NCBI GenBank assembly: GCA_022826305.1
Contig: JAJDVC010000064.1
Location: 1-32,345 of the forward strand
DNA: 32,345 bases
Source of the DNA: Gammaproteobacteria bacterium
GTDB taxonomy: Bacteria > Pseudomonadota > Gammaproteobacteria > Arenicellales > Poriferihabitantaceae
Reading direction: 5' to 3'
Part shown: positions 2,759-30,594 of the stretch, piece by piece
How the letters are laid out: every line of letters begins with the position of its first letter
Position numbering within the stretch: position 1 is the first letter of the stretch
Made by a program: the position numbers and the translations under genes
Notes under the pieces: model-generated
The model's input: only the letters and a program-made list of their open reading frames with translations
Told to the model about the DNA's origin: nothing
The model's database searches: none

Positions 2759-4363
2759 TCATTCCCGATTGTCCAGTTCCGCAACCCGATCCCACGTGGC
2801 ACTGCTTATCCCCGTATCGCGCAGCACGAACTTGCGGATCTTTCCGGTCGGTGTTTTCGGCAGGGCATCGACGATCTCGATGTACCGCGGAATCATGAAG
2901 TAGGCCATCCTCGGCTCCAGATAGCGAACAATCTCCTCCATGTCCGGATCGTGTCCCTCGCGCAGGACGATCACCGCCATCACCTCCTGCTCGGTGTCTT
3001 CCGAGTCCACTGGGATCACGGCGCATTCCAGGACGCCGGGATGACTGTTGATCTCGTATTCGACCTCCATTGAGGAAATGTTCTCGCCCCGACGCCGGAT
3101 AGCATCCTTGATGCGGTCGACGAAATACAGGTTTCCCCGTGCATCGCGCATCATCATGTCTCCGGTATGCATCCACAGGTTGCGCCAGGCCGAAGTGGTC
3201 CATTCGGGGTGGTTCCAGTACCCGTTGGTCATGATCCAGGGCTCCCTTGCGCGTACCAGGGCCTCCCCGGGCACGCCCGGCCCGACCTCCTGGTCGTGTT
3301 CGTCGACAATGCGTACTTCGTAGCGATCCTCCGCCACCTTTCCGCAGGAACGGTTGTCGACGAGGTCGAATCCCGACCGGGTGGGACAGTTCATTTCCGT
3401 TCCGCCCCATGTCGTGGAGACCCGGCAACCGAACCGTGTCTTGAAATCCTCCACCTCCGGAATCAGCGGCACCATCAGTACGCGTTCAAGCGTATTGTCA
3501 CGATCCATCTCCAGCACCGGCTGACGGTACAACATGTTCGCCATCGCCCCGAGCAGGAACGTCGTGGTGACGCCATGGTCAACCACATCCTGCCAGAACC
3601 TGCCGGCGCTGAAAGTCCCGGAAAGCACCGCCGTGCAGCCAACCAGGCAACTGGCGTAGATGACGGCGAACTTCCCCGCTATGTGGAACAGGGGCAAGGG
3701 AGCACAGTAGCGGTCGCTGTCGCGAAGATCGAGCATCTCGACGATCCCGCATGCATACTCCCAGACATGTGCATGGGTCAGGGTGACCCCTTTCGAGGGC
3801 CCGGTCGTCCCGGAGGTGTAGTAAACCCCCATCAGGTCATGATAGCACGGGCCGGGGCCCGTGTAGGGCTTGCCGTACAGGCTATCGAAACCGATGATCT
3901 CGAAATGCCGGGAGATCTGCCGGACGATATCCTGATCGTGGTCCGCAGGATCCGGCCAGACGACGATCCGTTCCAGATGCTCGAGCCGCCCGGCGAGCGC
4001 GACGAAACGGTCCAGGAACGCTCCGTCCACGATCAGGGTACGGGCCAGCGAATCGTTCACCAGATAAGCCAGCAGATTGCCCCGATAGTGCACGTTCACG
4101 GGAACCTCTATGCCGCCGAAAAGGGACAGGGCGCACCACACTCCGACATGATCCACGACATCCGGCAGCATGACCAGAACCGTGTCCCCGGCCTTGACGC
4201 CCCCGGACATCATGCCGCCAGCCAGCCGCCGCGCGCATTGATCCATCGCGGCATAGGTATGATTTCGCTGCGGAGTGACGATCCAGTTCCTGTCCGGAAA
4301 CTGCTCGACCCGCCGTTTCAATACGGTCGGAAAATCCTGTTCGGTCCTGCTGTCGGACAGCAT
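2759..4363 (-). CDS. acyl-CoA synthetase, CaiC-like
   Basis: ATP-dependent acid-CoA ligase of the ANL superfamily, activating a carboxylate through an acyl-adenylate. It has the nucleotide motif YYTSGTTGPSKG (residues 181-192 from the chosen start), the GGTEMN adenylate-binding motif, the TGD motif, the hinge DRIKDAIRRRGENIS and the terminal PTGKIRK with the catalytic lysine. At 534 residues it is normal length. The ATG at 4363 lies 7 bases after the stop of the upstream hydratase, so it is preferred over the ATG at 4408, which lies inside that gene. It is last in a four-gene operon. The pairing with a CaiD-like hydratase suggests a carnitine- or crotonobetaine-like substrate, by analogy with CaiC. 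A different short branched or betaine-type acid is equally possible. Confidence 0.9.
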   Translation of the reverse strand: MLSDSRTEQDFPTVLKRRVEQFPDRNWIVTPQRNHTYAAMDQCARRLAGGMMSGGVKAGDTVLVMLPDVVDHVGVWCALSLFGGIEVPVNVHYRGNLLAYLVNDSLARTLIVDGAFLDRFVALAGRLEHLERIVVWPDPADHDQDIVRQISRHFEIIGFDSLYGKPYTGPGPCYHDLMGVYYTSGTTGPSKGVTLTHAHVWEYACGIVEMLDLRDSDRYCAPLPLFHIAGKFAVIYASCLVGCTAVLSGTFSAGRFWQDVVDHGVTTTFLLGAMANMLYRQPVLEMDRDNTLERVLMVPLIPEVEDFKTRFGCRVSTTWGGTEMNCPTRSGFDLVDNRSCGKVAEDRYEVRIVDEHDQEVGPGVPGEALVRAREPWIMTNGYWNHPEWTTSAWRNLWMHTGDMMMRDARGNLYFVDRIKDAIRRRGENISSMEVEYEINSHPGVLECAVIPVDSEDTEQEVMAVIVLREGHDPDMEEIVRYLEPRMAYFMIPRYIEIVDALPKTPTGKIRKFVLRDTGISSATWDRVAELDNRE

Positions 4364-4370
4364 GGCAGGG

Positions 4371-5177
4371 CTACCTGCCCCGGAAATCCGGTTTGCGTTT
4401 TTCCGCAAAGGCCGCCAGCGCCTCGCCGTAGTCTTCCGTGTAGATCAACGTCGCGATGGTCTGCTTCTCCAGATTGAGCGCACCCTCGAAATCCGCCTCG
4501 ACGGACTGGGTGACCATGCGCTTGTGATGCATCACGGACAGGGGTGCCCGGGAAAGGATTACCTGCGCCAGCCTGAGTGCCTCAGCCTCCTCCTCACCGA
4601 GGGGAACCAGCCTGTTGACCAGCCCGATCCGGTAGCCCTCCCCGGCGTCGATGAATTCTCCGGTAAGCATCAGTTCCCTGGCCCGGTTGAGCCCGACGAT
4701 CATCGGCAGCAGCTTGGTAGCACCGCCCGTGATGGTCATGCCGGCATTGGATTCGGGAAATCCGAACACCGCGTTTTCCGCCGCCACGATCAGATCACAG
4801 TCGATTGCCACCTCGAAGCCGCCGCCCACCGCATACCCACGCACGGCGGCAATCACCACCTTCGGCGCCCTGCGGATAATACGCGGAATTTCCTGCAGGT
4901 TTTCCGTGATGTCCTCGATGATATCCAGGACCGGATGAATCTCGCCGCTCCGGACCAGGGGATATTCGGCCATGGCTACCTTCAGATCGTCCCCGGCGCA
5001 AAACGCATCGCCGACGCTGGAAATGATGATCACCCTGACCCGGTCATCGGCCGATGCCTCCCTGAGCACGTCGACCAGGCGCCGGATTTCCTCGGCGTCA
5101 AACGCGTTCAGGATTTCCGGCTTGTTGAACCGGATCCATGCGATTCCGTCCTGTATCTCGTAGAGCAATCGCGCCAT
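4371..5177 (-). CDS. enoyl-CoA hydratase/isomerase family, CaiD-like
   Basis: Crotonase-fold protein of 268 residues that would hydrate an enoyl-CoA or dehydrate or racemise a hydroxyacyl-CoA. The oxyanion-hole segments are visible (FCAGDDLK near residue 60 and RGYAVGGGFE near 115), followed by FGFPESNAGMTITGGATKLL, whose glutamate occupies the usual catalytic region. The C-terminal AFAEKRKPDFRGR is typical of the family and close in style to carnitinyl-CoA dehydratase CaiD. It sits between a thioesterase (16-base gap) and the CoA ligase (7-base gap), so the three are almost certainly co-transcribed. The natural substrate cannot be fixed from sequence. A carnitine-like acyl-CoA is the leading guess. 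Confidence 0.9.
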   Translation of the reverse strand: MARLLYEIQDGIAWIRFNKPEILNAFDAEEIRRLVDVLREASADDRVRVIIISSVGDAFCAGDDLKVAMAEYPLVRSGEIHPVLDIIEDITENLQEIPRIIRRAPKVVIAAVRGYAVGGGFEVAIDCDLIVAAENAVFGFPESNAGMTITGGATKLLPMIVGLNRARELMLTGEFIDAGEGYRIGLVNRLVPLGEEEAEALRLAQVILSRAPLSVMHHKRMVTQSVEADFEGALNLEKQTIATLIYTEDYGEALAAFAEKRKPDFRGR

Positions 5178-5193
5178 TGCCGATTCCTGCCGT

Positions 5194-5649
5194 CTAGGCC
5201 CGGTTCAGACTGATGCTCCGCCCGGCCCAGTCGGGCAGTTCGGACACTTCCGCGGCCTTCAGCCGCTCCTGCACCGAAGCCGGCATGGGAGTCACCTGTC
5301 CGCGCCCGGTGTCGTAATGCAGCAGCATGAATTCCCCAGTGGCGCACACGGTGCCGTCCACCTGCATCCTGTGCGCGAACCAGATCTTCCCGGGACCGGA
5401 TCCGAGTATCAGACTCTCGACCTCCATGGTGGCCGGGACGCGAACATCTTTCAGGTACCGCAGGTGCGTCTCCACCGTATAGATGGCGCATCCGGTATCC
5501 TCGAAATAGGGGATCCCGATGCCGAAATGCTCCTGTACCTTCCATGTCGCATTACTGAACGGCACAAGATAATAGGCCTCGTTCAGATGACCGTAGGCGT
5601 CCAGCCAGGCATCCTGCAAGGGTTCCTCGTGCAGTCTCAGGATCGTCAT
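5194..5649 (-). CDS. hotdog-fold acyl-CoA thioesterase
   Basis: A 151-residue single-domain hotdog protein. Residues 14-27 (AWLDAYGHLNEAYY) match the DxxGHxNxxxY active-site motif of the 4-hydroxybenzoyl-CoA thioesterase group, and HLRYLKDVRVPATMEVES matches the following beta-strand region. The same domain occurs fused to, or beside, carnitine 3-dehydrogenase, where it acts as a betainyl-CoA thioesterase; that gives a possible function but is inference. Its ATG overlaps the stop of the upstream GNAT gene by one base (TAATG), indicating translational coupling. It probably releases the free acid from the CoA ester made or modified by the hydratase and ligase next door. Confidence 0.85.
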   Translation of the reverse strand: MTILRLHEEPLQDAWLDAYGHLNEAYYLVPFSNATWKVQEHFGIGIPYFEDTGCAIYTVETHLRYLKDVRVPATMEVESLILGSGPGKIWFAHRMQVDGTVCATGEFMLLHYDTGRGQVTPMPASVQERLKAAEVSELPDWAGRSISLNRA

Positions 5650-6179
5650 TATTCAGGGCTCCGGAAGGATTTCTCCGCGATGCGGTTCCAGGCTTCCCAG
5701 GTCATGGCCCGGCCCGGATAGGACGGGCTGCCGAACGGCCAGCACGATGCGACCCAGTCCCGTACCGTCCGGTACAGATGATCGTCGAGCCCGGTTGTTG
5801 CCTCGGATTCCCGCACCCACATGGTGATTTCGACATCAAACCCGATTTTACGTGTCGGATAGATGTACAGACAACCCAGTACCCGGGATTCATCGAGGCT
5901 GGTGACCGTATAGGCAAAGGATGTCCGCATCTGGAACTCGCACTGGTGCCAGGCAAGCTCGATCAGGTTCTGTTCGCGTGTCAGGCCTTCCGGCCACTCG
6001 CCGTTTTCACGGAAAACCCGCTGCAGCCTTTCCCGGCTCGACATCACGGCCTCGTAATCCCTGTCGACATCCGCCATGACGAGCGGACGCAGGCGCATCC
6101 TCGGGGTTTCAAGCCGCTCGGGAACCCGGAAATCCCCGGGCACGATAGGCGGGTTATACACGGTCAGACCCCGTAACAC
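5649..6179 (-). CDS. GNAT-like acetyltransferase family protein
   Basis: First gene of the four-gene minus-strand CoA operon, 176 residues. The segment RLETPRMRLRPLVMADVDRD and the middle FAYTVTSLDESRVLGCLYIY have the layout of a GNAT N-acetyltransferase (beta1, then the strand preceding the acetyl-CoA loop). The classic Q/RxxGxG/A loop is not clear, so the fold assignment is moderate and catalytic activity uncertain. It has no signal peptide or membrane segment. Its stop codon overlaps the start of the thioesterase by one base. Co-translation with three CoA-ester enzymes suggests it acts on the same small molecule, for example acylating an amino group, or is a non-catalytic GNAT-fold protein. 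Confidence 0.65.
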   Translation of the reverse strand: MLRGLTVYNPPIVPGDFRVPERLETPRMRLRPLVMADVDRDYEAVMSSRERLQRVFRENGEWPEGLTREQNLIELAWHQCEFQMRTSFAYTVTSLDESRVLGCLYIYPTRKIGFDVEITMWVRESEATTGLDDHLYRTVRDWVASCWPFGSPSYPGRAMTWEAWNRIAEKSFRSPE

Positions 6180-6495
6180 GGGGAAATGTTGTCACGACCT
6201 GTCTCCATGCCGACAATCCGGAGGTTTGAACATGCGCAACGGACAGCCAGCCAGGACCTGACAGACAGCATGACCTGAATGCAAATGCCCTTCGTGAACG
6301 CATTCTCAGCCCCTGTCCGGAAAAACTGCAAGATATCATTCGTCTGTTCTCGTCAGGACACGATCATATCAGCATTGCATTTCGGCATCATGCCTGCCTG
6401 TGCAATGGCAGACCTGCCTCCGTTAGATGCCGTGCAAACCATCATGTCCAAGCTACGTGCTTGTGGCTGACGCAACACAGGCTTTTTCTGATTGG
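6180..6495. other. intergenic region, divergent promoters expected
   Basis: About 315 bases between the divergent GNAT operon and the intact Fic gene. Short open frames occur on the plus strand (for example one giving ALRERILSPCPEKLQDIIRLF near 6290-6350), but I do not recognise a family. Promoters for both neighbours should lie here, but I see no convincing -35/-10 pair. Confidence 0.4.
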
Positions 6496-7560
6496 ATGGA
6501 AACGGATGAGGTCTTGAACATAGGCACACTCAAGATCACCACTGAGGTTCTGGCGCTGATTTCCGATCTTGATCAATTCAAGGGGGCATGGCAGTTGATC
6601 GGGCGCATTGCGCCTGATCGGCTCTCAGACCTGCGTCGTGTAGCGACCATTGAAAGTACCGGTTCTTCCACACGGATTGAAGGAGCAAGGCTGACTGATC
6701 GTGAGGTTGAAAGGCTTTTGTCCGATCTTGAGATCAAGACCCTTGAAACGCGCGATGAGCAGGAAGTTGCCGGATATGCGGCAGTGATGGAAACGGTCCC
6801 TGCCAATCATGAATACATCGATCTGACCGAAAACCACATCATGCAGCTTCATCGCGACCTGCTGCAATTCTCCAGCAAGGATGAACGCCACCGCGGCGCC
6901 TACAAGACACTGCCGAACAATGTCGAGGCTTTCGGACCGGATGGGGAGAATCCGGGCGTTGTACTCGACACGGCTACCCCGTTCGATACACCGCGCCTTG
7001 TGCAAGCCCTGATCCGCTGGACGCAGGACGCCCTGGTCAAGGGAGAATACCATCCTCTGCTCGTTATTGCCGTGTTTGTGGTGGTGTTTCTGGCGATCCA
7101 TCCGTTTCAGGACGGCAATGGCCGATTGTCACGCATCCTGACGACGCTGCTCCTGCTGCGCGCCGGTTACGCCTACGTGCCATACAGTTCTCTGGAAAGC
7201 GTGATTGAACAGGACAAGAAAGGCTATTACCTGGCCTTGCGTCAGACGCAGGACACGATCCGCAATGATGAGCCGGACTGGCAGCCCTGGGTGGTTTATT
7301 TCCTGAGGTCCCTGCAAGCGCAAAAGCAGAAACTGGAAAAGAAGGTTGAGCGTGAACGACTTGCATTGGGTGATCTGCCGGAACTGTCGGCAAGTATTCT
7401 TGAGTTGGCGCGCGAGCGTGGCCGCATCACGATTGCAGACGCGACAAGGACCACTGGCTCAAGCCGGAATACGATCAAGGATCATGTCAGGGTGCTGGCA
7501 AGGGCGGGTCACCTGACCCGCCATGGTGCTGGCCGCGGTACCTGGTATTCGCTGTCATAG
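6496..7560 (+). CDS. Fic family protein with C-terminal winged helix
   Basis: Intact 354-residue Fic protein. The catalytic motif HPFQDGNGR is complete (residues 202-210) with the general-base histidine His202, so the usual reaction, transfer of AMP from ATP to a target hydroxyl, should be possible. An N-terminal SxxxEG motif (Ser58 to Gly63, STRIEG) matches the autoinhibitory helix of class II Fic proteins. The C-terminus (about 295-354) ends in a winged helix-turn-helix (ITIADATRTTGSSRNTIKDH), a common architecture. The ATG at 6496 is preferred over the in-frame ATG at 6427 because family similarity starts right after it; neither has a clear ribosome-binding site. It stands alone. Its target is unknown. 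Confidence 0.85.
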   Translation: METDEVLNIGTLKITTEVLALISDLDQFKGAWQLIGRIAPDRLSDLRRVATIESTGSSTRIEGARLTDREVERLLSDLEIKTLETRDEQEVAGYAAVMETVPANHEYIDLTENHIMQLHRDLLQFSSKDERHRGAYKTLPNNVEAFGPDGENPGVVLDTATPFDTPRLVQALIRWTQDALVKGEYHPLLVIAVFVVVFLAIHPFQDGNGRLSRILTTLLLLRAGYAYVPYSSLESVIEQDKKGYYLALRQTQDTIRNDEPDWQPWVVYFLRSLQAQKQKLEKKVERERLALGDLPELSASILELARERGRITIADATRTTGSSRNTIKDHVRVLARAGHLTRHGAGRGTWYSLS

Positions 7561-8182: not shown

Positions 8183-9694
8183 GTGAAAACGATCCTCCAC
8201 CACGCAGAAGCCGGACAATACGGACTGTTCATAGACGGTGATTATGTGCCAGGTTCCGCACGACAGTACGTTGACAGCATCAATCCTGCCCGCAACACGA
8301 CATGGTACACGATAACGGACGCCGGGCATGCGGATGTCGATCAGGCGGTCGCCGCCGCTGCCAGGGCACTCAGGAACCCGGCATGGCGCAGCCTGACCCA
8401 GACGGCCCGGGGCGGGCTGATCCGCAGGCTGGGAGACCTGCTTGCCGTTCACGGCGAACGGCTTGCGGAAATAGAAACCCGGGACAACGGCAAGCTGATC
8501 CGGGAAATGCGCGCGCAGATGGCGAGCCTGCCGGATACCTACTACTACCATGCCGGAATGGCCGACAAGCTGACCGGGGAAACGATACCCGTCAACAAGA
8601 CGGACACCTTCAACTTCACCCTGCGCGAACCGATCGGTGTGGTCGCCATCATCGTTCCCTGGAACTCTCCGCTCTACCTGCTGTCCAGCGTTCTGGCCCC
8701 CTGCCTCGCCGTCGGCAACACGGTCGTGGTGAAACCTGCCGAGAACACCACCGCATCAACGCTTGAATTCGCCGCACTGGTCCGGGAATCCGGCATCCCG
8801 GACGGCGTTTTCAACGTGGTTACCGGGCTCGGAGAGACGGCGGGAGAGGCCCTGGTCCGGCATCCCGGAATCAGCAAGGTCGCCTTCACCGGCGGTACGG
8901 AAACCGGGCGGAAGATCGCACGAAACGCGGCAGAGAATCTGGTACCGTGCACGCTGGAACTGGGCGGCAAGTCACCTCATGTGGTATTCGACGACTCGGA
9001 CCCGGAGCGCGCCGCCAGCGGCATAGTCTCCGGCATCTTCGCAGCAGGCGGGCAGACCTGCATAGCAGGCTCCCGCTGCTTCCTGCAGGAAGCCATATAC
9101 GACACCGTGCTCGACCTGCTGGTGCAAAAGGCCCGGGCAGTGGTTGTTGGCGACCCGATGGACCCGCAAACCCAGCTCGGGCCTCTTGCCCTGCACAGCC
9201 AGCTCGACAAGGTGAAGGACCATATCCGGACCGCGAGGCAGGACGGCGCCACCCTTGTGACCGGTGGCCGGCAGCCCGTCGGAGAAGGCTGTGCAGAAGG
9301 CCTCTACATCGAACCGACCGTGTTTACCGAAGTCACCCGTGACATGCGGCTGGCGAGGGAGGAGATATTCGGACCGGTGCTGGCGGTCATGCCCTTCAGC
9401 GATGAAGCGGAACTGATCAGGAAGGCCAACGATACCGTGTACGGCCTGGCTGCCGGAATCTGGACCCGCGACATCGACAGGGCATTGCGTTTCGCCCGGG
9501 ATGTGGATGCCGGCACGATATGGATAAACACCTACCGCAACGCGTCGTTCCTGTCGCCTTTCGGCGGGTTCAAGCAAAGCGGCTACGGAAAGCACAATGG
9601 CATGGAGGGAATCCGCGAGTATTCCCGGCTCAAGAATGTTCTGGTGGACTATTCGGGACAGACCCCCGATCCCTTCGTGATGAAGCTCGGCTAG
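8183..9694 (+). CDS. NAD(P)-dependent aldehyde dehydrogenase
   Basis: Full-length 503-residue aldehyde dehydrogenase that oxidises an aldehyde to the acid. It has the general-base Glu259 in LELGGKSP, the catalytic Cys293 in GGQTCIAGSR, the cofactor motif FTGGTETGRK (235-244), the VPWNSPL segment and the C-terminal FGGFKQSGYGKHNG. The frame begins with GTG at 8183 without a strong ribosome-binding site. It is first of a plus-strand operon with an LLM oxidoreductase (19-base gap) and an alpha/beta hydrolase. Style is that of betaine- or semialdehyde-type dehydrogenases, but substrate cannot be read from sequence. Two roles are plausible: the last step of the local LLM module, or the missing alpha-ketoglutarate semialdehyde step of hydroxyproline breakdown. 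Confidence 0.93.
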   Translation: MKTILHHAEAGQYGLFIDGDYVPGSARQYVDSINPARNTTWYTITDAGHADVDQAVAAAARALRNPAWRSLTQTARGGLIRRLGDLLAVHGERLAEIETRDNGKLIREMRAQMASLPDTYYYHAGMADKLTGETIPVNKTDTFNFTLREPIGVVAIIVPWNSPLYLLSSVLAPCLAVGNTVVVKPAENTTASTLEFAALVRESGIPDGVFNVVTGLGETAGEALVRHPGISKVAFTGGTETGRKIARNAAENLVPCTLELGGKSPHVVFDDSDPERAASGIVSGIFAAGGQTCIAGSRCFLQEAIYDTVLDLLVQKARAVVVGDPMDPQTQLGPLALHSQLDKVKDHIRTARQDGATLVTGGRQPVGEGCAEGLYIEPTVFTEVTRDMRLAREEIFGPVLAVMPFSDEAELIRKANDTVYGLAAGIWTRDIDRALRFARDVDAGTIWINTYRNASFLSPFGGFKQSGYGKHNGMEGIREYSRLKNVLVDYSGQTPDPFVMKLG

Positions 9695-9713
9695 CTGACC
9701 GGGATGCGGGACG

Positions 9714-10772
9714 ATGAAGTTCTCCATCGCCGTCAACATGAATCGCTTCTCCCCCCGGACGGCAATGACCGATGTGGTGCGTAGCACCCTGGAGCTGGTC
9801 AGGATGGCCGACCAGGGCGGCTTCGAGACGGCATGGGCCTCGGAGCACCACTGCATCGAGATGACCATCGCACCGAATCCCTTCCTCCAGCTCACCTGCT
9901 GGTCCCAGCACACCTCCCGCATACGCCTCGGAACCGCCGTGATCTGCGCACCCTACTGGCATCCCATCCGGGCTGCCGAGGAAGCCGCGCTGGTGGACCT
10001 GTATTCCGGCGGCAGGCTTGAACTCGGCCTCGCACGCGGAGCCTTCCAGTACGAGTTCGACCGCATGGCCAGCGGTGTTTCACAGAAACTGGACGGCGGG
10101 GAATACCTGTACGAGATCCTGCCGGCGATCAAGGCCCTGTGGCGAGGAGACTACACGCATCAGGGGCGTTTCTGGCAGTTTCCGCGTGCAACGGCCGTAC
10201 CCAAGCCGATTCAGTCCCCCCATCCCCCCCTGTGGGTGGCGGCACGGGGCCAGGACACCTTCGACTGGGCGGTGGAAAACGGGCTCGGCGTGATGTCGAC
10301 GCCGCTGCAGAAACCGTTCGGTGAGGTGCTGGACCTGGCCAGGAAACTGGATCTGGCCACGGACCGCTTCCCGGACAGGAAACGTCCGCGCTGGCTGGTC
10401 CTGCGCAACACCTGCGTGTACGACAACCCCGACCAGTGGAGGATCCCGGTCCAGGCCGCCAGGCGATACGCCGCACAGTTCCAGAGCCTGTTCACGGCCA
10501 GGGAGGATGTGGTCAACGGGTTCCCCCGGGAAATCTCCCTGTCCGGTCTGGATCAGGCCGACCACTACAGCGATACCGGCATCTGGCGGAACATGATGTT
10601 CGGGACACCAGGGGAAGTCATCGAGAAACTCAGGGCGTACCGGTCGGCCGGCGTCGACCTGTTCTGCTACGGTGCGGATTTCGGCCTCGAAGAACAGGTC
10701 GCACGACGCTCCCTGGAGCTGTTCATCACCGAAGTCATGCCCGGCTTCGCACAGGATGACGCACTCCCATGA
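9714..10772 (+). CDS. LLM class flavin-dependent oxidoreductase
   Basis: A 352-residue bacterial-luciferase-like monooxygenase, which uses reduced FMN and O2. Family features are EHHCIEMTIAPNPFLQL (about residues 44-60), the IRLGTAVICAPYWHPIRAAE strand-loop and the LYSGGRLELGLARGAFQYEF region, followed by a C-terminal MMFGTPGEVIEKLRAYRSAG typical of the TIM-barrel end. Reduced flavin must come from a reductase that is not in this operon. The stop overlaps the hydrolase start by four bases (ATGA). Members act on aldehydes, terpenes, sulfonates or cyclic ketones (type II Baeyer-Villiger). Flanking by a lactonase-like hydrolase and an aldehyde dehydrogenase makes a ring-opening oxygenation attractive but unproven. 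Confidence 0.9.
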   Translation: MKFSIAVNMNRFSPRTAMTDVVRSTLELVRMADQGGFETAWASEHHCIEMTIAPNPFLQLTCWSQHTSRIRLGTAVICAPYWHPIRAAEEAALVDLYSGGRLELGLARGAFQYEFDRMASGVSQKLDGGEYLYEILPAIKALWRGDYTHQGRFWQFPRATAVPKPIQSPHPPLWVAARGQDTFDWAVENGLGVMSTPLQKPFGEVLDLARKLDLATDRFPDRKRPRWLVLRNTCVYDNPDQWRIPVQAARRYAAQFQSLFTAREDVVNGFPREISLSGLDQADHYSDTGIWRNMMFGTPGEVIEKLRAYRSAGVDLFCYGADFGLEEQVARRSLELFITEVMPGFAQDDALP

Positions 10773-11524
10773 GGCATCATGCGATCCAGTCCGGGTCAGG
10801 CCCCCGCGTCGTCCTCGTGCACGGCGTGGGCGGCAACCTTCGGAGCTGGGACGAGATCGTCGGCATCCTGGAAAAGCGGTTCAGTATCCTGCGATACGAC
10901 CTGAGGGGCCATGGATCAAGCGGGAACCCGCCGGGACCATGGACCCTGGACGACATGGTCTGCGACCTTCTGCAGGTCGTCGAAGCGGCCGGATGGAAGC
11001 AGTTCGCCCTGGCCGGATTTTCCCTTGGCGGCCTGATTGCCCAGGGATTCACCCTGAAGTATCCGCGAACCGTGCAGAGACTCGCCATCGTGAGCACAGT
11101 TGCCGGTCGCAGCGAGACCGATCGGCGCAAGGTGGCAAGGCGACTGTGCAATCTGGAGCAGGATGACCTGCAGGCCAATATCGAACCGGCCATGGAGCGC
11201 TGGTTCACGCCGGAATTCAGGCGTTCCTGCCCTGAAAAGGTGGCGGCACGCATTCGCACCCTGCGCTCGAACGACCCGCAGGGGTACCTCAACGCCTACC
11301 GGGTGTTTTCGCTTGGCGACCTGGGCAGGTTCCTGCACCGGATCAGTTGCCCGACGCTTGTCATGACCGGAGAACACGATCCCGGTTCCAGCGTGCACAT
11401 GGCACGCTACATGCATGAGCAGATTGCCGGATCCCGGCTTGAGATCCTGGCTGGCCTCAGGCACAGCCTGCTTGTCGAGGCCCCGTCGGCAGTAGCCGGG
11501 ATACTCGATGATTTCCTGTCGTGA
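10769..11524 (+). CDS. alpha/beta hydrolase, enol-lactonase-like
   Basis: A 251-residue alpha/beta hydrolase. The oxyanion segment VLVHGVGGNLRSW precedes the nucleophile elbow GFSLGG with Ser85. Asp204 in GEHDPG and His232 in LRHSLL complete the triad. RYDLRGHGSSG is the classic strand-4 motif. Length and motifs resemble 3-oxoadipate enol-lactonase (PcaD) and related esterases, so cleavage of a lactone or ester is likely. The ATG overlaps the LLM stop (ATGA), a sign of translational coupling and of a shared pathway. No signal peptide is present, so it is cytosolic. Confidence 0.9.
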   Translation: MRHHAIQSGSGPRVVLVHGVGGNLRSWDEIVGILEKRFSILRYDLRGHGSSGNPPGPWTLDDMVCDLLQVVEAAGWKQFALAGFSLGGLIAQGFTLKYPRTVQRLAIVSTVAGRSETDRRKVARRLCNLEQDDLQANIEPAMERWFTPEFRRSCPEKVAARIRTLRSNDPQGYLNAYRVFSLGDLGRFLHRISCPTLVMTGEHDPGSSVHMARYMHEQIAGSRLEILAGLRHSLLVEAPSAVAGILDDFLS

Positions 11525-11889
11525 AACCCGTTCCCCGTTCGCCTGTCGCGCGCTTCAGCCTGGATCGTGGTACACGCCGGATCATGCTGAAGTGGCAGGA
11601 CGGAACCGCAATTCGTCTGCCTTTCACCCGGTTCCGTCACGCACACGATTTTCCGATGCCTGGCAGTCCTGACACACCGGGTCCGGAATGGTGCCGTGAA
11701 ACAGAGAATCCGGATGATGGTCCGGAACGACCGGATGCCGATCGGGAATTGGTGGCGCATCATTATCCGTGTTCCCCGGGGGTGGGATTCCAGGAAATCA
11801 TGCCATCCAATGCAAGCGTGTCACCTGAATTGAACAAATCTGCCTGCGACAGGATTTCGACAATCAGATATGTTCAGACAAGTTGCTGA
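11521..11889 (+). CDS. hypothetical small ORF, DUF971-like N-terminus
   Basis: A 122-codon frame starting with GTG, whose first bases overlap the hydrolase stop (GTGA), as expected for a coupled fourth gene. Residues 10-34 (RFSLDRGTRRIMLKWQDG and then IRLPFTRFR) resemble the start of DUF971 / GBBH-like N-terminal domains ('...SRxLeIxFDDGxxfxLPxexLR'). The remainder does not look like the family and has a compositionally odd, proline-rich run. It may be a decayed or chance ORF; I would not call it expressed on this evidence. Confidence 0.25.
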   Translation: MKPVPRSPVARFSLDRGTRRIMLKWQDGTAIRLPFTRFRHAHDFPMPGSPDTPGPEWCRETENPDDGPERPDADRELVAHHYPCSPGVGFQEIMPSNASVSPELNKSACDRISTIRYVQTSC

Positions 11890-12009: not shown

Positions 12010-12750
12010 CTACCAGCTTTCCACGGATGTACGCAGATCCACCTCGAATGACCAGCCAGTGGGTTTCTGCCGGTACAGGTTCCAGTAGGTCTCGGCCAGC
12101 GCATCGAGAGCGATGAAACGCTTCAGTTCGTCCTCATCCGGTTCATGGCCCATCCGGCTGAACCACTTGTCGCCCGCGATGCCGCCGTCAATGATCACAT
12201 GAGCCACGTGCAATCCCGCCGGACCGTATTCCTTCGCCATGGCCTGCGCCAGTGTTCGCAACGCCGCCTTGCCGGAGTTGAACGCCCCGAAACCCGCCCG
12301 ACCACGCAAGGAAGCACTGGCTCCGGTAAAGATCAGCGTCCCCTCTCCGGGAACCAGGCGACGGATGCACTCGCGTCCGAACAGGAAACCGCCGTAGCAC
12401 AGGACACGCCATGCCGCCTCGAAATCCTGTGCAGTCATGTCCCGGATCATCCCGGGAGTGCTGTTGCCGACATTGTAGACAGCGAGATCCAGGTCTCCGG
12501 AGCCTGCCTGCATAGCCGTCTCAAACAGCCCGGCCACCTGCTCTTCGGAGGTGGCATCGCATACCACCGGCGTTGCACTACCCCCTTCAGCCGCAATGAC
12601 CTCGGCCAGTGTTTCAAGCCTGGCAGGTGTCCTGCCCGCCATATAGACGTGATGTCCCCGGTTCGCAAAATGCCTGCACAAGGCGCCGCCGAGTCCACGC
12701 TCTGGTCCAACTCCCAGTACAATCGCCCGGGGTTTTCCGCCTGTTGTCAT
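12010..12750 (-). CDS. SDR family oxidoreductase with Phe in place of catalytic Tyr
   Basis: A 246-residue short-chain dehydrogenase/reductase fold. The nucleotide-binding motif is GVGPERGLG (residues 13-21), followed by AGRT after strand 2 and YNVGNS in place of the NNAG motif. The active-site serine region is TGASASLRG, but the normal YxxxK reads FNSGK (Phe157, Lys161), so the catalytic tyrosine is absent. The DNA codon is TTC, not a one-letter ambiguity. From memory, a subgroup of SDRs with 'HVAHVIIDGGI' in this position often lacks the tyrosine, so this may be a family trait rather than decay. The reaction is therefore uncertain. It is monocistronic, and its ATG lies in TTGTCATG on a clear frame. 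Confidence 0.8.
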   Translation of the reverse strand: MTTGGKPRAIVLGVGPERGLGGALCRHFANRGHHVYMAGRTPARLETLAEVIAAEGGSATPVVCDATSEEQVAGLFETAMQAGSGDLDLAVYNVGNSTPGMIRDMTAQDFEAAWRVLCYGGFLFGRECIRRLVPGEGTLIFTGASASLRGRAGFGAFNSGKAALRTLAQAMAKEYGPAGLHVAHVIIDGGIAGDKWFSRMGHEPDEDELKRFIALDALAETYWNLYRQKPTGWSFEVDLRTSVESW

Positions 12751-16960: not shown

Positions 16961-17379
16961 GGCCCGTATCGTCAGGACGAAGGTATGCCGTATGCCGAGA
17001 GCCCCCTGTACTGCCGTCTTCGTTGCCTGTCGGCATCAGACAGAGGGTTCCGACGACCCTGGAGGTGATCCCGGACAGGAACGCCCTTGCAGGGAGACAG
17101 GCCATCGTATCGAAAATGCATATACACTCAAGATGCTGAACAGGAGTGAATCTGTACAGCAGTACCGAATGGAAGCGATCAGCGATATTCCGCCGAACCT
17201 GCTGCATGAAGGTCCGCTGATCAGGGTGCAGTCCGGGCAGGTCGAAGAGGTGGTGGTGCGCGTACAGGCACCATGCAGCCGGATACTTCCGGGGGGATCT
17301 GAACTCCTGTTCAGGCTGTCATTGTTTACGGATCCGGAAGGTCTTTTGATCACGAGGCCCGTTTCTCCGGCCCGCTCGA
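16961..17379. other. gap without recognisable coding sequence
   Basis: About 420 bases between the ccoS relic and the permease relic. A long plus-strand frame runs through it into the DDAH gene, but its translation is low-complexity and family-less, so I read it as non-coding or as the eroded body of the permease gene. Confidence 0.4.
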
Positions 17380-17559
17380 ATAACCGGCGACAGGCGTACC
17401 AGCCCGTGGCGGATTTCGGCGATCTGCCTGATCGTCCGGCAGGAAACGTACGGAATCCACGAGCCGCTCGTGTTCGTGGGATTGATCTATCTGTGTCTGA
17501 CCGGTATCCTCGTTCTCGTGTTCCGCTACTTCGAAAAGCGGATTCCGAGAAGGGGCTAG
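17380..17559 (+). pseudogene. amino-acid ABC transporter permease relic (C-terminus)
   Basis: One plus-strand frame ending at TAG 17557-17559 reads ICLIVRQETYGIHEP, then LVFVGLIYLCLTGILVLVF and RYFEKRIPRRG. This is the last membrane helix and basic tail of HisM/ArtQ-type polar amino-acid permeases ('...TYrxFEvftxVAlIYLxltxxlxxlfRrLErr'). Nothing upstream in any frame resembles the rest of the protein. The stop lies 29 bases before the DDAH start, so the two were probably co-transcribed and the transporter was lost. Confidence 0.65.
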
Positions 17560-17588
17560 CTGCACGGACAGCACCGGACTGGCGACTG

Positions 17589-18386
17589 ATGACAAACCGT
17601 TCCTGCACATTCACCCATGCAATCATGCGGCTTCCGGGAGCGACAGTCGTCAACGGGTTGCGTGCGGTCGACAAGGGTGCGCCTGATCTTTCATCTTTCA
17701 GGCGTCACCATGGAAGCTATGTGGATGCGCTTCGTTCGACCGGAGCGATTGTCGAGGTACTGCCACCCCTTGAGGAATTTCCGGATTCGGTCTTTGTCGA
17801 GGACACCGCTCTGTGCCTGCCTGAAGGCGCAATTGTCTTGAGGCCGGGCGCTTCGTCCCGGACCGGAGAAGCCAGGGAGATCACACCACACCTCGCGAAA
17901 TACTACGACAAGGTCCATGTCATCGAATCACCCGGTTTCATTGAGGGCGGAGATATCCTGGTAACCGAAAGAGAGATTCTGGTCGGCCGCTCGGCCCGTA
18001 CCAACCGTGAAGGAATCCATGCCCTGAAGAGCATTGTTGCAGGATGGGGAGGCGCGGTCAGGGAAGTCCCGACTCCGCAGAACATCCTGCATTTCAAGAG
18101 CGACTGCTCACTCCTCGACGAGGAGACGATCCTGGCAACGCCACGGCTCTCCGCTTCCGGATGTTTCAGGGGATACCGTGTAATCCATACTGCGGAGGAT
18201 GAAGAGGCTTCGGCAAACACGGTCCGATTCAACAGCCTGGTGATCGTCCCGGCCGGATTTCCGAGAACCACCGAATATCTCGCGTCGCGCGGATTCAACG
18301 TCAGGATCGTAGAAAATACCGAAGCAGCAAAGCTCGACGGGGGAATGTCCTGCCTTTCCCTCAGGTTCTCCCTTCCTGCTGACTGA
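17589..18386 (+). CDS. dimethylarginine dimethylaminohydrolase (DDAH)
   Basis: A 265-residue guanidino-modifying enzyme that hydrolyses N-omega-methylated arginines to citrulline and methylamine or dimethylamine. Family residues are in place: FVED (69-72), EGGD (119-122), His168 in ILHFKSDCS and the nucleophile Cys255 in GGMSCLSLRF near the C-terminus. Length fits bacterial DDAH (about 254 residues). The ATG at 17589 is chosen because similarity starts at once (SCTFTHAIMRLPG); the open frame continues upstream to 16992 but without homology. It follows the permease relic by 29 bases. A related arginine-deiminase-superfamily activity cannot be excluded, but the spacing and motifs favour DDAH. 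Confidence 0.88.
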   Translation: MTNRSCTFTHAIMRLPGATVVNGLRAVDKGAPDLSSFRRHHGSYVDALRSTGAIVEVLPPLEEFPDSVFVEDTALCLPEGAIVLRPGASSRTGEAREITPHLAKYYDKVHVIESPGFIEGGDILVTEREILVGRSARTNREGIHALKSIVAGWGGAVREVPTPQNILHFKSDCSLLDEETILATPRLSASGCFRGYRVIHTAEDEEASANTVRFNSLVIVPAGFPRTTEYLASRGFNVRIVENTEAAKLDGGMSCLSLRFSLPAD

Positions 18387-18599: not shown

Positions 18600-19160
18600 A
18601 CATGACCCGAAAATCAACCGTGCGATCCGGGATGATTTCCAGAAATCGGGCTACATGATCTGTTGTTCATTGATGCCTCGGGAATCAAGGTGGGCAGGAA
18701 CCTGTTCGAGCGGACGAGCAAGGACTGTAACGGCACCAGTGCTGCTGGCTGCACCAGACGTTCCCGGAAGGTCTCTGGTCGGCAGACCGGTTGCAGCCGG
18801 GCGGCGGGCGGGTGACACTGAACCGGCGCAAGCTCCTGCACTGGACCCAGGGGATGATTCCGGGGAGACAATGCCTGCTGCAAGGGTACCCTGATCCGGG
18901 CATTCAGGGAGCGGGGGCGGGACTATTCGATCAGCCTGGCCCATGACGGCTGGCGCAGGCCCGTGCCGGAACAGCTTGAGGGACTTCCTGCTCCGGCATG
19001 GCGGAGGCAGCCAGCTTCGCGAGGTACCAGCCCGGTGGCCGGGAGCGGATGCGGCATGCAGCGGAATGATTGCAACCCGTGGATCACATGTGAAAATCGA
19101 CAGGAACTTCAGACCGGATTACCGGTATCGCAAACACCCTGCCTCCTCTCCATGATTTCA
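18600..19160 (+). pseudogene. DDE transposase relic, IS1380-like
   Basis: Several plus-strand frames together give a transposase core: LFIDASGIKVGRNLFERTSK (from about 18662), EGLWSADRLQPGGGRVTLN (about 18765), DNACCKGTLIRAFRERGRDY with SISLAHDGWRRPVPEQLEGL (from 18867), then LREVPARWPGADAA and RNFRPDYRYR (19017-19130). The DASG and DNAxxKG aspartates fit the first two residues of a DDE triad. At least three frame changes and a stop disrupt it. Assignment to the IS1380 group is from remembered motifs. I could not find terminal inverted repeats. Confidence 0.6.
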
Positions 19161-19424
19161 CAGCTACGATCTGGTGGGCGATCGCGGCCTCGAGATCGAC
19201 ATGAACTGCGTAATGCGCATCTTGAGGGAAACAAGGGAAACAGTCAGGTACAATGGATTGCATGCGAATTTCCGGCAACTGCACGACCGGCCAGACTGTG
19301 CCCGAAAGCAGGACGGCTCTACCAGATGATTCTTGAAGCCCATCAGCCGGCACACATGACCGGAAAGGCCGGAGGCGTTGACAGCGGACTGCCGGGGAAC
19401 CGGATCGGGGTTCCGATGTCGCAA

Positions 19425-19900
19425 ACCCGATCAAGCCGGAAATCACCGGCAGAAGACTCTGGCCGTTGCGGGACCGCGATCTTCCGGGGATGCATCGGGC
19501 GATCCTGCACACCCTTTCCCGGGTCGGCCTGTCAGACTGCGCCCGGAACGGTGGTCGATACCGTTACCCGGCCCGTCGGAAAGCGGAAGACGTCATTATC
19601 CGGCTTCCAGTGCGGATTCACGCTACACGGCCAGAAACCCGGTCATGAGATGGTCCTGAGCGGCCCCAGGACTGGCATGAGGTCCGGAGGCGCCTCTCCA
19701 GGCATCCTCGATACGGAAACACGGCAGTGTCGGAGATCGACGCTGAAGGATCTGCATGATGCAGCACGACTGGTCGATGTGCTGGACAACATCCATTTCT
19801 TCAGCGGGCTGATGACTGCCGTGGACATGCCCGACGAGCAAACGCTGAACATCAACACGGCCTGCGCCTGCCTGAGCGACCCCATCAGGCATGGAGGATC
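19425..19900 (+). pseudogene. MttB-family methyltransferase relic
   Basis: Two plus-strand frames spell the N-terminal third of a trimethylamine/glycine-betaine:corrinoid methyltransferase. The first (19430-19600) reads ITGRRLWPLRDRDLPGMHRA with ILHTLSRVGLSD and then EDVIIRLP. After a shift at about 19610 the second (19616-19886) reads FTLHGQKPGHEMVLSG, GGASPGILDTETRQCRRSTL, DLHDAARLVDVLDNIHFF and MPDEQTLNINTACACLS. These match MttB's 'FTLHaRdPerdv...GP..gpp.v.Dle.G..r..t..D..d..rLvdaLdNIhf'. The C-terminal two thirds is missing, replaced by the start of the next gene at 20076. No pyrrolysine codon can be assessed because that region is gone. Confidence 0.75.
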
Positions 19901-20075
19901 CGGATGCGGCCGAAGCCGCACGCTCCTCGATAGTGGCCCCGACCCGGGTCTCGGAATCCGCACGGAGAAAGGACTGGAAATGGTGCCTGGACACCGCATC
20001 GCGATCGGTTCCGCAGGAACGGATTTGCAGGTCGATGGAACAACTTCGAATGCATCACAATAGAACAGTTCGCTG

Positions 20076-21075: not shown

Positions 21076-22077
21076 TCAGTTCAGCAGGAACCCGTGGGCA
21101 TACGGGTCGCGCTCGTCGATAATGATGCGGTTGTGACCGGTAATCCTCGCCCATCCCCTTATTGTCGGGATGATTGCGTCCCGCCCGCCGATCCGGGTAC
21201 GGGCTGTCGGGCAGCCTGTAAAGAGGCTTCCGATAATGCTTTCGTGGACGAATTCCTGGCCAATGGAGAGCTCCCCCCTGGCAACCAGTTGCGCCATGCG
21301 TGCACAGGTGCCGGTTCCGCACGGCGAACGGTCGATTCCCCGGTCGCCGTAGAGCACGACGTTGCGCATGTCCGCCTCGGGGTGTCTGGCCTCGTCCGTC
21401 CACATGACATGGCTGACGCTGCGGATCGTGTCATTCACGGGATGAACGAATTCCGCCTGGTCATTGACCAGGCGACGGATTGCCGGACTGTAGCGGCGGA
21501 TGGTATCCACATCGAATACGTCGAGACCGGGGTAATGCGTCTGGGGCTCGACGATTGCATAGAAATTGCCGCCGTAACTGACATCCAGTGTCACGACACC
21601 CAGATCCGGCACATCCACCTCAAGCCCGGTCGTATGAACAAAGGCGGGCACATTGGTCAGCGTCACGGATTCGATGAACCGGCCCGACTGCTCGTAACGC
21701 GTTTCCACCGGCCCGGCCGGCGTATCCAGCTTCAGCAAGCCCGGGGTCTTCGGCACCACCAGCTCCGATTCCAGTGCAACGGTTACCGTCCCGATGGTGC
21801 CGTGTCCGCACATCGGCAGACAGCCACTGACCTCGATGAACAGGACTCCCAGGTCATGCTCTGGTTCGGTGGGCGGATAGAGAATGGAGCCGGACATGGC
21901 GTCGTGGCCGCGCGGCTCGAACATCAGTCCCGTGCGAATCCAGTCGTATTCGGAGAGAAAGTGCTGGCGCATCTCGCTGAGGGATTCCCCGTCCAGTGGC
22001 GGCGGATTGCTGATCACCACCCGGACCGGGTTGCCGCACGTATGGGCGTCAATGCATTTGAAGGTTGTTGCAGGCAT
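21076..22077 (-). CDS. 4-hydroxyproline 2-epimerase (proline racemase family)
   Basis: A 333-residue proline-racemase-fold epimerase interconverting trans-4-hydroxy-L-proline and cis-4-hydroxy-D-proline. Both catalytic cysteines are present: Cys90 in MCGHGTIG and Cys253 in SPCGTGTCARM, so it is an epimerase rather than a dehydratase (which would have Thr at the second site). The following genes in the operon are the D-hydroxyproline oxidase and the deaminase, which fix the substrate. It is the last gene, 186 bases after the oxidase stop, a gap that may hold its own promoter. The ATG at 22077 opens straight into the family start (KCIDAHTCGNPVRVV). Cytosolic. Confidence 0.93.
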   Translation of the reverse strand: MPATTFKCIDAHTCGNPVRVVISNPPPLDGESLSEMRQHFLSEYDWIRTGLMFEPRGHDAMSGSILYPPTEPEHDLGVLFIEVSGCLPMCGHGTIGTVTVALESELVVPKTPGLLKLDTPAGPVETRYEQSGRFIESVTLTNVPAFVHTTGLEVDVPDLGVVTLDVSYGGNFYAIVEPQTHYPGLDVFDVDTIRRYSPAIRRLVNDQAEFVHPVNDTIRSVSHVMWTDEARHPEADMRNVVLYGDRGIDRSPCGTGTCARMAQLVARGELSIGQEFVHESIIGSLFTGCPTARTRIGGRDAIIPTIRGWARITGHNRIIIDERDPYAHGFLLN

Positions 22078-22190
22078 GGTTCAGTCGCTCAGGTTGCCGC
22101 TCGGTACACGAACTGTCCGCGCTTCACTTTTCCGGTACCGCACACATCGCGCACTGGAGCATGCGTGAATACTACACCAAATCATGAAAC

Positions 22191-22208
22191 GGCCGGTACT
22201 CGACCGGC
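22191..22208 (-). terminator. small hairpin between oxidase and epimerase genes
   Basis: GCCGGT and ACCGGC (22192-22197 and 22203-22208) form a 6-bp stem with an ACTCG loop. On the minus strand it is followed by CGTTTCATGATTTGG, only weakly T-rich. It could attenuate read-through from the oxidase gene into the epimerase gene. Confidence 0.25.
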
Positions 22209-22263
22209 ATGACTTCTACCTGCACGATTCCCGGCCATGCCGGCCTGGGCGCCGCGAAAAGCA

Positions 22264-23517
22264 TCAATTGAAGCGCGAAATCGAAAAAGGAGCGGGATCC
22301 AGCCCTGTAGAATCTCCGCAAACCATGCAGGCGATCAGTCTGCCGGTCGTGGCAGCCATGGTCAGACCGTAATGGCCGTGACCGAATGCATGCCAGGCAT
22401 TGGACATGCGCCGGGAAGGGCCGATGACGGGTACGGAGTCCGGTGTCGCGGGGCGATGCCCCATCCACCGGGTTCCATCCCGGTCATCAAGCGCCGGCAG
22501 ATAACGGCGTGCAATATCCACCAGCCTGTCGCAACGACTCCAGTCCGGTTTCGCACGAAGTCCCGCAAACTCGGCCGTACCGCCGATCCGCAGACCGTTC
22601 CGGATCGCACTGATGACAAACTTCTCTTCGCCGAAGATCACCTGCCGCTCCAGTACGACCCCGGGACTCGGCAAGGTGGTGTTGTATCCACGTTCGGATT
22701 GCAGCAGGACCCTCTCCCCCAGCTGTCGACAGAAGGGTTCCGACCATGCCCCGGCGGCGATGACGACACGCTCGACCGGAACACTGCGCCCGTCACCCAG
22801 TTCAAGAGCGCCGACCTGCTTCCCGGATGTGCGCAGTGATGCCACCCGCTCCCTCTCCATCCTCCCTCCGGAGCGGATGAAGCAGTCGGCCAGCCCCCGG
22901 GCAAAGGCGTGCGGATCCGTGGTATTGCACCAGTCAGGCGTATACCAGCCGCACTCCACCTGCTCCAGGGCCGGTTCCATCCGCCTGATGTCATCCGCGC
23001 CGAGCTCCTCCATCCGGACACCCTGGTCGGACCTGATCCGCCATTCCGCCCGGTCCCTGCAAAAGGCCGCATGCGTGCGGTAGACGGTCAGTGCGCCCCT
23101 TTCGGTGAACAGGGACTTCAGCCCCGCCCGCCCGACCAGTTCACGAGTATCCGCCAGACCGGGCTGAAGCAGGGACGACAGGGCCCGTGACAGCCGTTCG
23201 ACCTCGCTGCACCTGCCCGCACGCACGAAACGCCACAGCCAGGGAATCATGGACGGGAAATGCCCTGGCCGCACGGATAGCGGACCGCAGGAATCCAGCA
23301 GCCACCCGGGCACCCTGCACAGGACCCCGGGCACCGAGGCTGGCACCACATCGGCGAACCCGAATCCTCCCGCATTGCCGAAAGAGGTCATGCTGCCCGG
23401 GGGCTCGGGATCATACAGCGTTACCTGGAAACCCCGGTCCAGCAACCGGATACCGCAGCAGATGCCGATGATCCCGGCGCCGATCACTGCACATTCCCCT
23501 GTCCCGGCAGCCGACAT
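22264..23517 (-). CDS. FAD-dependent D-amino-acid (D-hydroxyproline) dehydrogenase
   Basis: A 417-residue DadA-like flavoprotein. The dinucleotide-binding GAGIIGICCG (13-22) is followed by GNAGG, and the C-terminal GHRPATPDSVPVIG with HAFGHGHYGLTMA is the second FAD motif of the D-amino-acid dehydrogenase/glycine oxidase group. In context it oxidises cis-4-hydroxy-D-proline to 1-pyrroline-4-hydroxy-2-carboxylate, passing electrons to the quinone pool or a carrier. Start at 23517 is 16 bases after the deaminase stop, so the pair is co-transcribed. No signal peptide; probably peripheral to the inner membrane. A general D-amino-acid role is possible if the operon context is misleading. Confidence 0.9.
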   Translation of the reverse strand: MSAAGTGECAVIGAGIIGICCGIRLLDRGFQVTLYDPEPPGSMTSFGNAGGFGFADVVPASVPGVLCRVPGWLLDSCGPLSVRPGHFPSMIPWLWRFVRAGRCSEVERLSRALSSLLQPGLADTRELVGRAGLKSLFTERGALTVYRTHAAFCRDRAEWRIRSDQGVRMEELGADDIRRMEPALEQVECGWYTPDWCNTTDPHAFARGLADCFIRSGGRMERERVASLRTSGKQVGALELGDGRSVPVERVVIAAGAWSEPFCRQLGERVLLQSERGYNTTLPSPGVVLERQVIFGEEKFVISAIRNGLRIGGTAEFAGLRAKPDWSRCDRLVDIARRYLPALDDRDGTRWMGHRPATPDSVPVIGPSRRMSNAWHAFGHGHYGLTMAATTGRLIACMVCGDSTGLDPAPFSISRFN

Positions 23518-23533
23518 GGTCGGTCAGGTGCCG

Positions 23534-30487: not shown

Positions 30488-30549
30488 GTGATCGGTCAGG
30501 GAAAACGGAACAGGCAGAGGCTGGGCCCCCGGAAAGTATCGTCCGGTGC

Positions 30550-30555
30550 ATTCTA
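30550..30555 (-). promoter_or_regulatory. candidate hutF promoter, extended -10
   Basis: The minus strand reads TGCTAGAAT: an extended -10 (TGn) followed by TAGAAT, 62 bases before the hutF ATG. A -35 resembling TTTCGC lies 17 bases further up but is a poor match, as is common with extended -10 promoters. Confidence 0.4.
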
Positions 30556-30594
30556 GCAAGCTGCAGGCGGATGCGAAACGCCCTGGTGCGGGTT

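Follow-up and report, generated by a model that had tools for sequence, protein, structure and literature searches.

Trigonelline and homarine are pyridine betaines methylated on nitrogen, a group that is widespread in plants and plankton. The plant product trigonelline contains a nitrogen ring and is broken down in Acinetobacter by a pathway reportedly laid out by Perchat et al. in 2018. TgnA/TgnB is described as opening the trigonelline ring (PMC8269262). The trigonelline genes comprise tgnA, tgnB and tgnC with a hydrolase and SSADH, in the order hydrolase, flavin reductase (FR), LLM-class flavin-dependent oxygenase (LLM), aldehyde dehydrogenase (ALDH). Loci whose LLM belongs to the TgnB clade have tgnA, tgnB and tgnC by annotation (tgnB is annotated in NZ_CP094644.1), plus SSADH and CMD. 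Related to tgnABC is a widespread, apparently uncharacterised cassette, termed here clade II, with the order FR-ALDH-LLM-hydrolase. Mostly it also holds CMD or NIPSNAP, AA_synth and an ABC transporter (a glycine betaine/proline transporter in Azospirillum), and a helix-turn-helix regulator belongs to it as well. Its hosts are rhizobia, Azospirillum, Pandoraea, Caballeronia and Pseudomonas.

The 32,345-nucleotide stretch analysed as a whole, called the window here, carries an ALDH-LLM-hydrolase module (Table 1). The original prediction described three linked genes of catabolic type, and the open reading frames and Pfam matches agree; its positions are those of the reading frames, as are the 19 bases between the ALDH and LLM genes (9695–9713) and the ATGA at 10769–10772 common to the LLM stop and the hydrolase start. 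The Pfam E-values exclude chance reading frames. The prediction that the genes are expressed together was drawn from the spacing; a scan for promoters and terminators gave counts no higher than in shuffled sequence (1 against 0.9; 3 against 3.1), so co-transcription is presumed from spacing and conserved gene order. Elsewhere in the window, a candidate MttB gene at 18963–20063 was rejected: its Pfam match is only partial (37 bits), and the two minus-strand reading frames there have no match.

Table 1. Genes of the module and its surroundings in the window.
Gene product	Coordinates	Strand	Length and start	Pfam match
Acyl-CoA ligase	2759–4408	−		AMP-binding, E 2e-58
Enoyl-CoA hydratase (ECH) family protein	4371–5177	−		ECH_1, E 3e-54
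Thioesterase, carnitine 3-dehydrogenase C-terminal-domain-like	5194–5649	−		4HBT_2, 83.8 bits
GNAT-like protein, gene 1 of the divergent operon	5649–6179	−		Acetyltransf_3, 20.3 bits (below cut-off)
ALDH, TgnC-like, clade II of cassette	8183–9694	+	503 aa, GTG	Aldedh, E 7e-170
LLM oxygenase, TgnB-like, clade II	9714–10772	+	352 aa, ATG	Bac_luciferase, E 6e-54
Alpha/beta hydrolase, related to tgn-cluster hydrolase	10769–11524	+	251 aa, ATG	Abhydrolase_1, E 1e-26
SDR-family protein, downstream of module	12010–12750	−		Pfam

All three proteins have homologues in the trigonelline system, and, as there, a TgnC-type ALDH and an alpha/beta hydrolase of related clades adjoin the oxygenase. Clade II cassettes share both the three genes and their order. 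The ALDH is 59% identical to the ALDH of the Thalassospira clade II cassette, against 44% to TgnC and 44–46% to those of other cassette types; the hydrolase is 46% identical to a clade II hydrolase, against 31% to that of the tgn cluster and 29–36% to other types. The trees of these two proteins agree: the ALDH falls in a clade of 42 that includes 37 clade II ALDHs (support 0.97), the hydrolase in a clade of 47 that includes 40 clade II hydrolases (support 0.964). Glu259 and Cys293 of the ALDH and Ser85, Asp204 and His232 of the hydrolase (window numbering), which we take to be catalytic residues, are invariant in alignments of eight rows each.

The assignment of the middle protein to the LLM family holds, with 184 bits to Bac_luciferase (PF00296) against a cut-off of 27.9 and a modelled fold that also matches LLM structures. 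It is the only close member of its family in the genome, the one other match being just 28% identical, and His45 and His46 are invariant in alignments of 11 and 26 rows. With 51.2% identity to clade II, 50.6% to clade III and 37% to TgnB, and bit scores of 380 for clade II versus 350 for clade III, it appears nearer clade II than clade III by a small margin, and clearly nearer clade II than TgnB. FastTree places it in clade II among 131 sequences (support 0.948), and IQ-TREE gives that placement 76.5/66 on 39 LLMs hand-picked from the 131 and rooted on a very distant LLM; the latter support is weak, and its position is less firm than those of the ALDH and hydrolase. Because the 12-member TgnB clade does not include the protein, a direct trigonelline orthologue is rejected. 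E. coli genomes searched at the DNA level with a clade II LLM gene gave no match.

Of the 43 evaluable clade II loci (the window counted), 34 have both an ALDH and a hydrolase no more than 2.5 kb from the LLM; the figures are 10 of 10 for the TgnB clade and 9 of 40 for clade III. Co-conservation of the three genes was the check named with the original prediction. In the nearest tree group of six, ALDH and hydrolase are linked to the LLM solely in the window, and the contig stretches compared for L047, L142, L148, L148_1 and L182_1, some of them short, hold no ALDH or hydrolase of these families. In G011, a genome of the same family, a truncated LLM (81% over 80 residues) comes directly after a 70% identical ALDH. 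Relatives also show other arrangements: G010, again of the same family, has an ALDH (73% identical) and a hydrolase with no LLM between them, and G015 has an LLM beside a thioesterase with neither ALDH nor hydrolase. That the parts recur in the other combinations of G010 and G015, and that the genome holds a second ALDH and hydrolase of these families on another contig (C132), would fit a loose collection in which the three enzymes work in different pathways and the neighbours share no common route. The 19-base gap, the ATGA overlap, the clade II linkage and the agreement of the ALDH and hydrolase trees make such a collection quite improbable.

The window also differs from its relatives. The reductase, CMD, AA_synth and transporter found in the trigonelline system and the clade II cassette alike have no match near the module, nor do the SSADH of the former or the regulator and NIPSNAP of the latter, and a CoA-ligase/ECH/thioesterase/GNAT operon adjoins it. 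For AA_synth the absence is weak evidence, since the PF06684 search of the genome found no match with a control that matched nowhere, and a protein query, likewise without a match in the genome, had no positive control.

The original prediction proposed as a possible role of the module Baeyer-Villiger attack on a cyclic ketone, followed by lactone hydrolysis and aldehyde oxidation. The AlphaFold model of the LLM (mean pLDDT 89.1) superimposes on solved LLM structures with Z up to 37.1. Among solved structures, RslO1 (7bip) and the bacterial luciferase alpha chain score highest in the profile comparison (136.6 and 116 bits) and are among the best fold matches (Z 37.1 and 35.6), at 21–24% identity. 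Their known reactions are different ones. Diketocamphane monooxygenases (PDB 4uwm, 5aec) share the LLM fold and presumably the dependence on FMNH2; the model matches 3,6-diketocamphane monooxygenase with Z 31.6 (3.3 Å over 327 residues), below luciferase, RslO1 and 2i7g. The fold comparison by itself does not separate a Baeyer-Villiger enzyme from a Tgn-type one. In sequence, diketocamphane monooxygenase is about 18% identical, matches with E 9e-5 and 24.7 bits (4uwm) versus 85 for the best chain, and is not among the profile matches at E 1e-10, and the near relatives are the family that includes TgnB. The hydrolase is lactonase-like, as predicted, in that its best NCBIfam models are 3-oxoadipate enol-lactonases, all below cut-off (166.8 bits against 255.85 for the PcaD equivalog), and the downstream SDR-family gene could make a ketone. 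Both sequence and gene context favour the Tgn family, and Baeyer-Villiger oxidation is therefore dropped as the main reading and is very unlikely.

The prediction that no flavin reductase is linked to the module is correct: a PF01613 search of the genome gave three matches, on contigs C132, C42 and C88, and none on the window contig (C13). Of these, just the C132 protein, which is TgnA-like, closely resembles the cassette reductases (39% identity to that of Thalassospira); the matches on C42 and C88 are weak. Its gene stands in an FR-hydrolase-ALDH series without an LLM. In G007, G010 and G011 the corresponding clusters are FR-LLM-hydrolase-ALDH (FR 61–62%, hydrolase 57–62%, ALDH 77–79% identical), as is that of G021 (48, 46 and 72%). 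The C132 operon is orthologous to the relatives' clusters, minus the LLM. The flavin enzyme that partners the module thus seems to be encoded elsewhere in the genome, and the C132 reductase may serve the window LLM. The cofactor would be FMN rather than F420, because no CofD match was found in the genome (90.8% complete; the control gave a match in 10 of 14), which speaks against F420 dependence; the F420 models among the 25 matches listed of 28 were below cut-off.

The module is probably Tgn-like and would break down an N-methylated, probably heterocyclic, betaine aerobically. This reading is based on the genes, their homology, shared order, tree placement and conserved residues, on the C132 reductase operon that lacks an LLM, and on the lack of a CofD match; the position of the LLM outside the TgnB clade, its weak IQ-TREE support, the missing ALDH and hydrolase in its nearest tree group, the other gene combinations in relatives and the absence of AA_synth and of cassette transporter genes argue against it. 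Opening of a betaine ring is the logic expected to be common to the window and the trigonelline system. We infer that (i) the TgnA-like reductase would supply FMNH2 to the LLM oxygenase, (ii) the oxygenase would cleave the substrate oxidatively, (iii) the TgnC-like ALDH would turn the resulting aldehyde into an acid, (iv) the alpha/beta hydrolase would cut an N-formyl enamide (or enol-lactone-like) bond to give an amine and a semialdehyde or acid, and (v) the acid may be handled further by the CoA-ligase, ECH and thioesterase of the divergent operon.

The closest relatives keep part of the operon at 2759–6179 in synteny, and a functional tie to the module is presumed. Next to its ALDH-LLM locus (L111), G011 carries a homologue of the GNAT-like protein at 63% identity, and in the remaining loci compared no homologue exceeds 38%; thioesterase homologues of 65–69% occur only in G015, G010 and G011 among 237 loci. 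The L110 locus of G010 has homologues of the ECH (75%, on the strand opposite to the ALDH and hydrolase) and of the ligase (66%); the listed start of the window ligase may be too far upstream. The thioesterase matches a single NCBIfam model (PRK07531, positions 345–492). The ligase scores below cut-off against PRK06155 (498 of 722 bits) and the crotonobetaine/carnitine-CoA ligase model (251 of 651 bits).

These neighbours bear on another substrate class, an acyclic quaternary amine, in which the LLM would cleave a carnitine- or gamma-butyrobetaine-like compound into trimethylamine and a semialdehyde, the ALDH would oxidise the semialdehyde, and the ligase, ECH and thioesterase would form the CoA side. 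The kinship of the thioesterase to the C-terminal domain of carnitine 3-dehydrogenase is consistent with this, as is the best NCBIfam model of the ALDH, betaine-aldehyde dehydrogenase, at a score below cut-off. Clusters of clade III, whose LLMs resemble the window LLM almost as closely as those of clade II do, can also include a carnitinyl-CoA dehydratase-like ECH, 3-hydroxyacyl-CoA dehydrogenase and a 3-keto-5-aminohexanoate cleavage protein. The ALDH and hydrolase are, however, clearly nearer clade II, where the carnitine-like genes go unmatched except for the window's own ECH and where SSADH sometimes lies nearby, and no obvious task would be left for the alpha/beta hydrolase. An acyclic substrate is therefore unlikely, and a heterocyclic betaine is preferred.

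More tentatively, clade II may be an uncharacterised ring-opening LLM class for a betaine other than trigonelline, split in this genome between an oxygenase in one operon and a reductase from a related operon that lost its oxygenase. Homarine is one candidate substrate: cleavage at the bond that TgnB cuts, followed by oxidation of the aldehyde and loss of the N-formyl group, would leave an N-methylglutamate skeleton. The name Mgd presumably stands for N-methylglutamate dehydrogenase. Mgd is named as a participant in homarine catabolism (PMC13390433). Against homarine stands the argument that, for steric reasons, TgnAB is unlikely to act on it (PMC8269262). The homarine pathway enzymes (Nat Microbiol 2026) may already be these clade II-type ones, or may be quite different.

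The analysis corrects a cyclic-ketone assignment that was plausible but unsupported. The uncultured Arenicellales genome offers a compact version of the clade II set, and with it definite genes to test, among them a two-component flavin oxygenase whose reductase would come from another operon. The wider group is large, apparently uncharacterised and related to the oxygenases that open the trigonelline ring, and it points to substrates for which bacterial degraders are perhaps not yet known.

The original prediction placed genes for an ALDH, an LLM oxygenase and an alpha/beta hydrolase in a row, with 19 bases between the first two and an ATGA overlap between the last two, and all of this was borne out. 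Family scores exclude chance ORFs for all three; the GTG start of the ALDH coincides in alignment with the start of a Thalassospira relative, and the putative catalytic residues of the module proteins do not vary across the alignments made. An ORF at 11521-11889, with no Pfam family, begins inside the hydrolase stop (GTGA overlap) and is possibly a fourth module gene, or chance.

Features of the module and its upstream neighbours
Feature	Position	Strand	Remark
Acyl-CoA ligase	2759-4408	minus	divergent from module
Enoyl-CoA hydratase (ECH)	4371-5177	minus	divergent from module
4HBT-type thioesterase	5194-5649	minus	divergent from module
GNAT-like gene	5649-6179	minus	divergent from module
Fic-domain gene	6427-7560		between divergent operon and ALDH
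ALDH	8183-9694		GTG start; ORF and family score
LLM	9714-10772		ORF and family score
Alpha/beta hydrolase	10769-11524		ORF and family score

The three genes ALDH, LLM and hydrolase are rather likely to form an oxidative betaine module resembling the trigonelline ring-opening system (Tgn). The reading as a Baeyer-Villiger module opening a cyclic ketone is not supported: ALDH and hydrolase identities and trees point to the clade II cassette, which is related to Tgn. Closest copies aside, identities to the window LLM are ∼46-58% in two large groups and ∼36-42% in a third. A midpoint-rooted FastTree built from 131 LLMs, two distant ones standing apart, gives clades I (the TgnB clade), II and III 12, 46 and 71 members, respectively, and places the window LLM in clade II (support 0.948); with IQ-TREE on 39 chosen LLMs this grouping is weak (76.5/66). 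The LLM alone hardly decides the clade, because it is 51.2% identical to clade II and 50.6% to clade III reference copies. At the level of sequence, the ALDH (59% to clade II versus 44-46% to other types) and the hydrolase (46% versus 29-36%) do decide for clade II. The window falls inside an ALDH clade of 42 (82 rows, support 0.97) and a hydrolase clade of 47 (91 rows, support 0.964), in which clade II loci account for 37 and 40 members, respectively.

The clade II cassette has the order AA_synth-HTH-FR-ALDH-LLM-hydrolase-CMD/NIPSNAP-ABC transporter (FR, flavin reductase), and that of clade I is AA_synth-hydrolase-FR-LLM-ALDH, with SSADH in some. In some clade III loci, FR, hydrolase, RidA, ALDH and LLM are accompanied by ECH, a keto-acid cleavage protein and 3-hydroxyacyl-CoA dehydrogenase. 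In Acinetobacter sp. PK01, the clade I copy carries the annotations tgnA, tgnB and tgnC; according to a published account, the first step of trigonelline degradation is opening of the aromatic ring by the TgnA/TgnB oxygenase (PMC8269262). Shinella plasmid NZ_OZ000531.1 carries a match to the window LLM (49%, ∼49 kb) and one to the Pantoea TgnB-type LLM (69%, ∼61 kb), ∼12 kb apart, and in G053, a genome of the same order, the window LLM has 23 matches at E 0.001.

Co-conservation of the three genes was found in part. Among evaluable loci, picked by LLM similarity independent of context and many from related rhizobia, the LLM has both ALDH and hydrolase no more than 2.5 kb away in 10/10 of clade I, 34/43 of clade II (window included) and 9/40 of clade III, with 2, 3 and 31 tree members omitted for short flanks. 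In the nearest tree group of the window LLM (six members), ALDH and hydrolase are linked in the window only; a truncated LLM in the related genome G011, too short for the tree, follows an ALDH. The module is patchy, since at an E limit of 1e-100 no ALDH match above 48% occurs in 6 other genomes of the genus, and matches of at least 58% occur in 4 of 23 other family genomes (G010, G011, G017 and G020).

The proposed structural comparison with diketocamphane monooxygenases confirmed a common superfamily but did not indicate the reaction. With a mean pLDDT of 89.1, the AlphaFold model of the LLM comes closest in fold to 2i7g, RslO1, luciferase alpha and the Enhygromyxa luciferase (Z 35.6-37.1), with diketocamphane monooxygenase ranking after these (Z 31.6); on the predicted model, the fold shows the superfamily, not the reaction. 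The cofactor is likely FMN rather than F420, because CofD has no match in the window's own genome.

As predicted, no flavin reductase (PF01613) is found within the window. Three proteins of its genome (90.8% complete, 263 contigs) match PF01613, and the cassette-reductase-like one lies on contig C132, where FR, hydrolase and ALDH are consecutive without an LLM (locus L124, 1176-4457; FR-hydrolase spacing 13 bases). They are 61-62%, 57-62% and 77-79% identical to FR-LLM-hydrolase-ALDH clusters of G007, G010 and G011, and 48, 46 and 72% to that of G021; by identity, the operon is orthologous to these clusters, with the LLM missing. The window LLM finds just one second LLM in the genome (28% identical). 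With one cassette-like reductase and no other close LLM, window oxygenase and C132 reductase are the obvious pair and would work together, although a further LLM may be encoded in the portion of the genome that the assembly lacks.

The thioesterase of the divergent operon has as its sole NCBIfam match the C-terminal part of carnitine 3-dehydrogenase, and 14 of its best 15 plasmid matches (of 229 records) are annotated as that enzyme, the other being unannotated. Homologues above 38% are confined to three places among 237 loci, some overlapping. In G015, a thioesterase (65%) lies immediately downstream of an LLM (73%). In G010, thioesterase (66%), ligase (66%) and ECH (75%) are divergent from ALDH (73%) and hydrolase (58%), and in G011, thioesterase (69%) and GNAT (63%) are followed by ALDH (70%) and LLM (81% over 80 residues, contig end). 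Immediately 5' of the ALDH, G010 and G011 have an amidase-family gene (54% identical to each other) in the place that the Fic gene takes in the window; the protein of the window's own genome that matches the G010 amidase best (42%) is encoded on a different contig. Best PDB matches of a G011 enolase-superfamily gene include 4e8g/4izg/4j1o and 2pmq, which are proline-betaine epimerases.

Elsewhere in the window, consecutive proline-racemase-family, DAO and DHDPS-family genes (21076-24418, minus) look like a hydroxyproline catabolic operon, and a gene of the aromatic amino acid lyase family, together with an amidohydrolase gene that it overlaps (27504-30625, minus), possibly serves histidine-type catabolism. 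The ORF at 18963-20063 has a partial trimethylamine methyltransferase family match (residues 209-306, 37 bits), with similar stretches at loci L071, L077, L196 and L206, and may not be a real gene. That at 16992-18386 is dimethylargininase-like over residues 207-459 (208.5 bits, below cut-off), with an N-terminal FixG_C match (38 bits).

A sarcosine-oxidase-type alpha subunit query gave 16 matches in the window's own genome, two near full-length (35% and 34%) and many shorter to the C-terminal part. Judged by homology, these putative enzymes are in keeping with methylated-amine catabolism.
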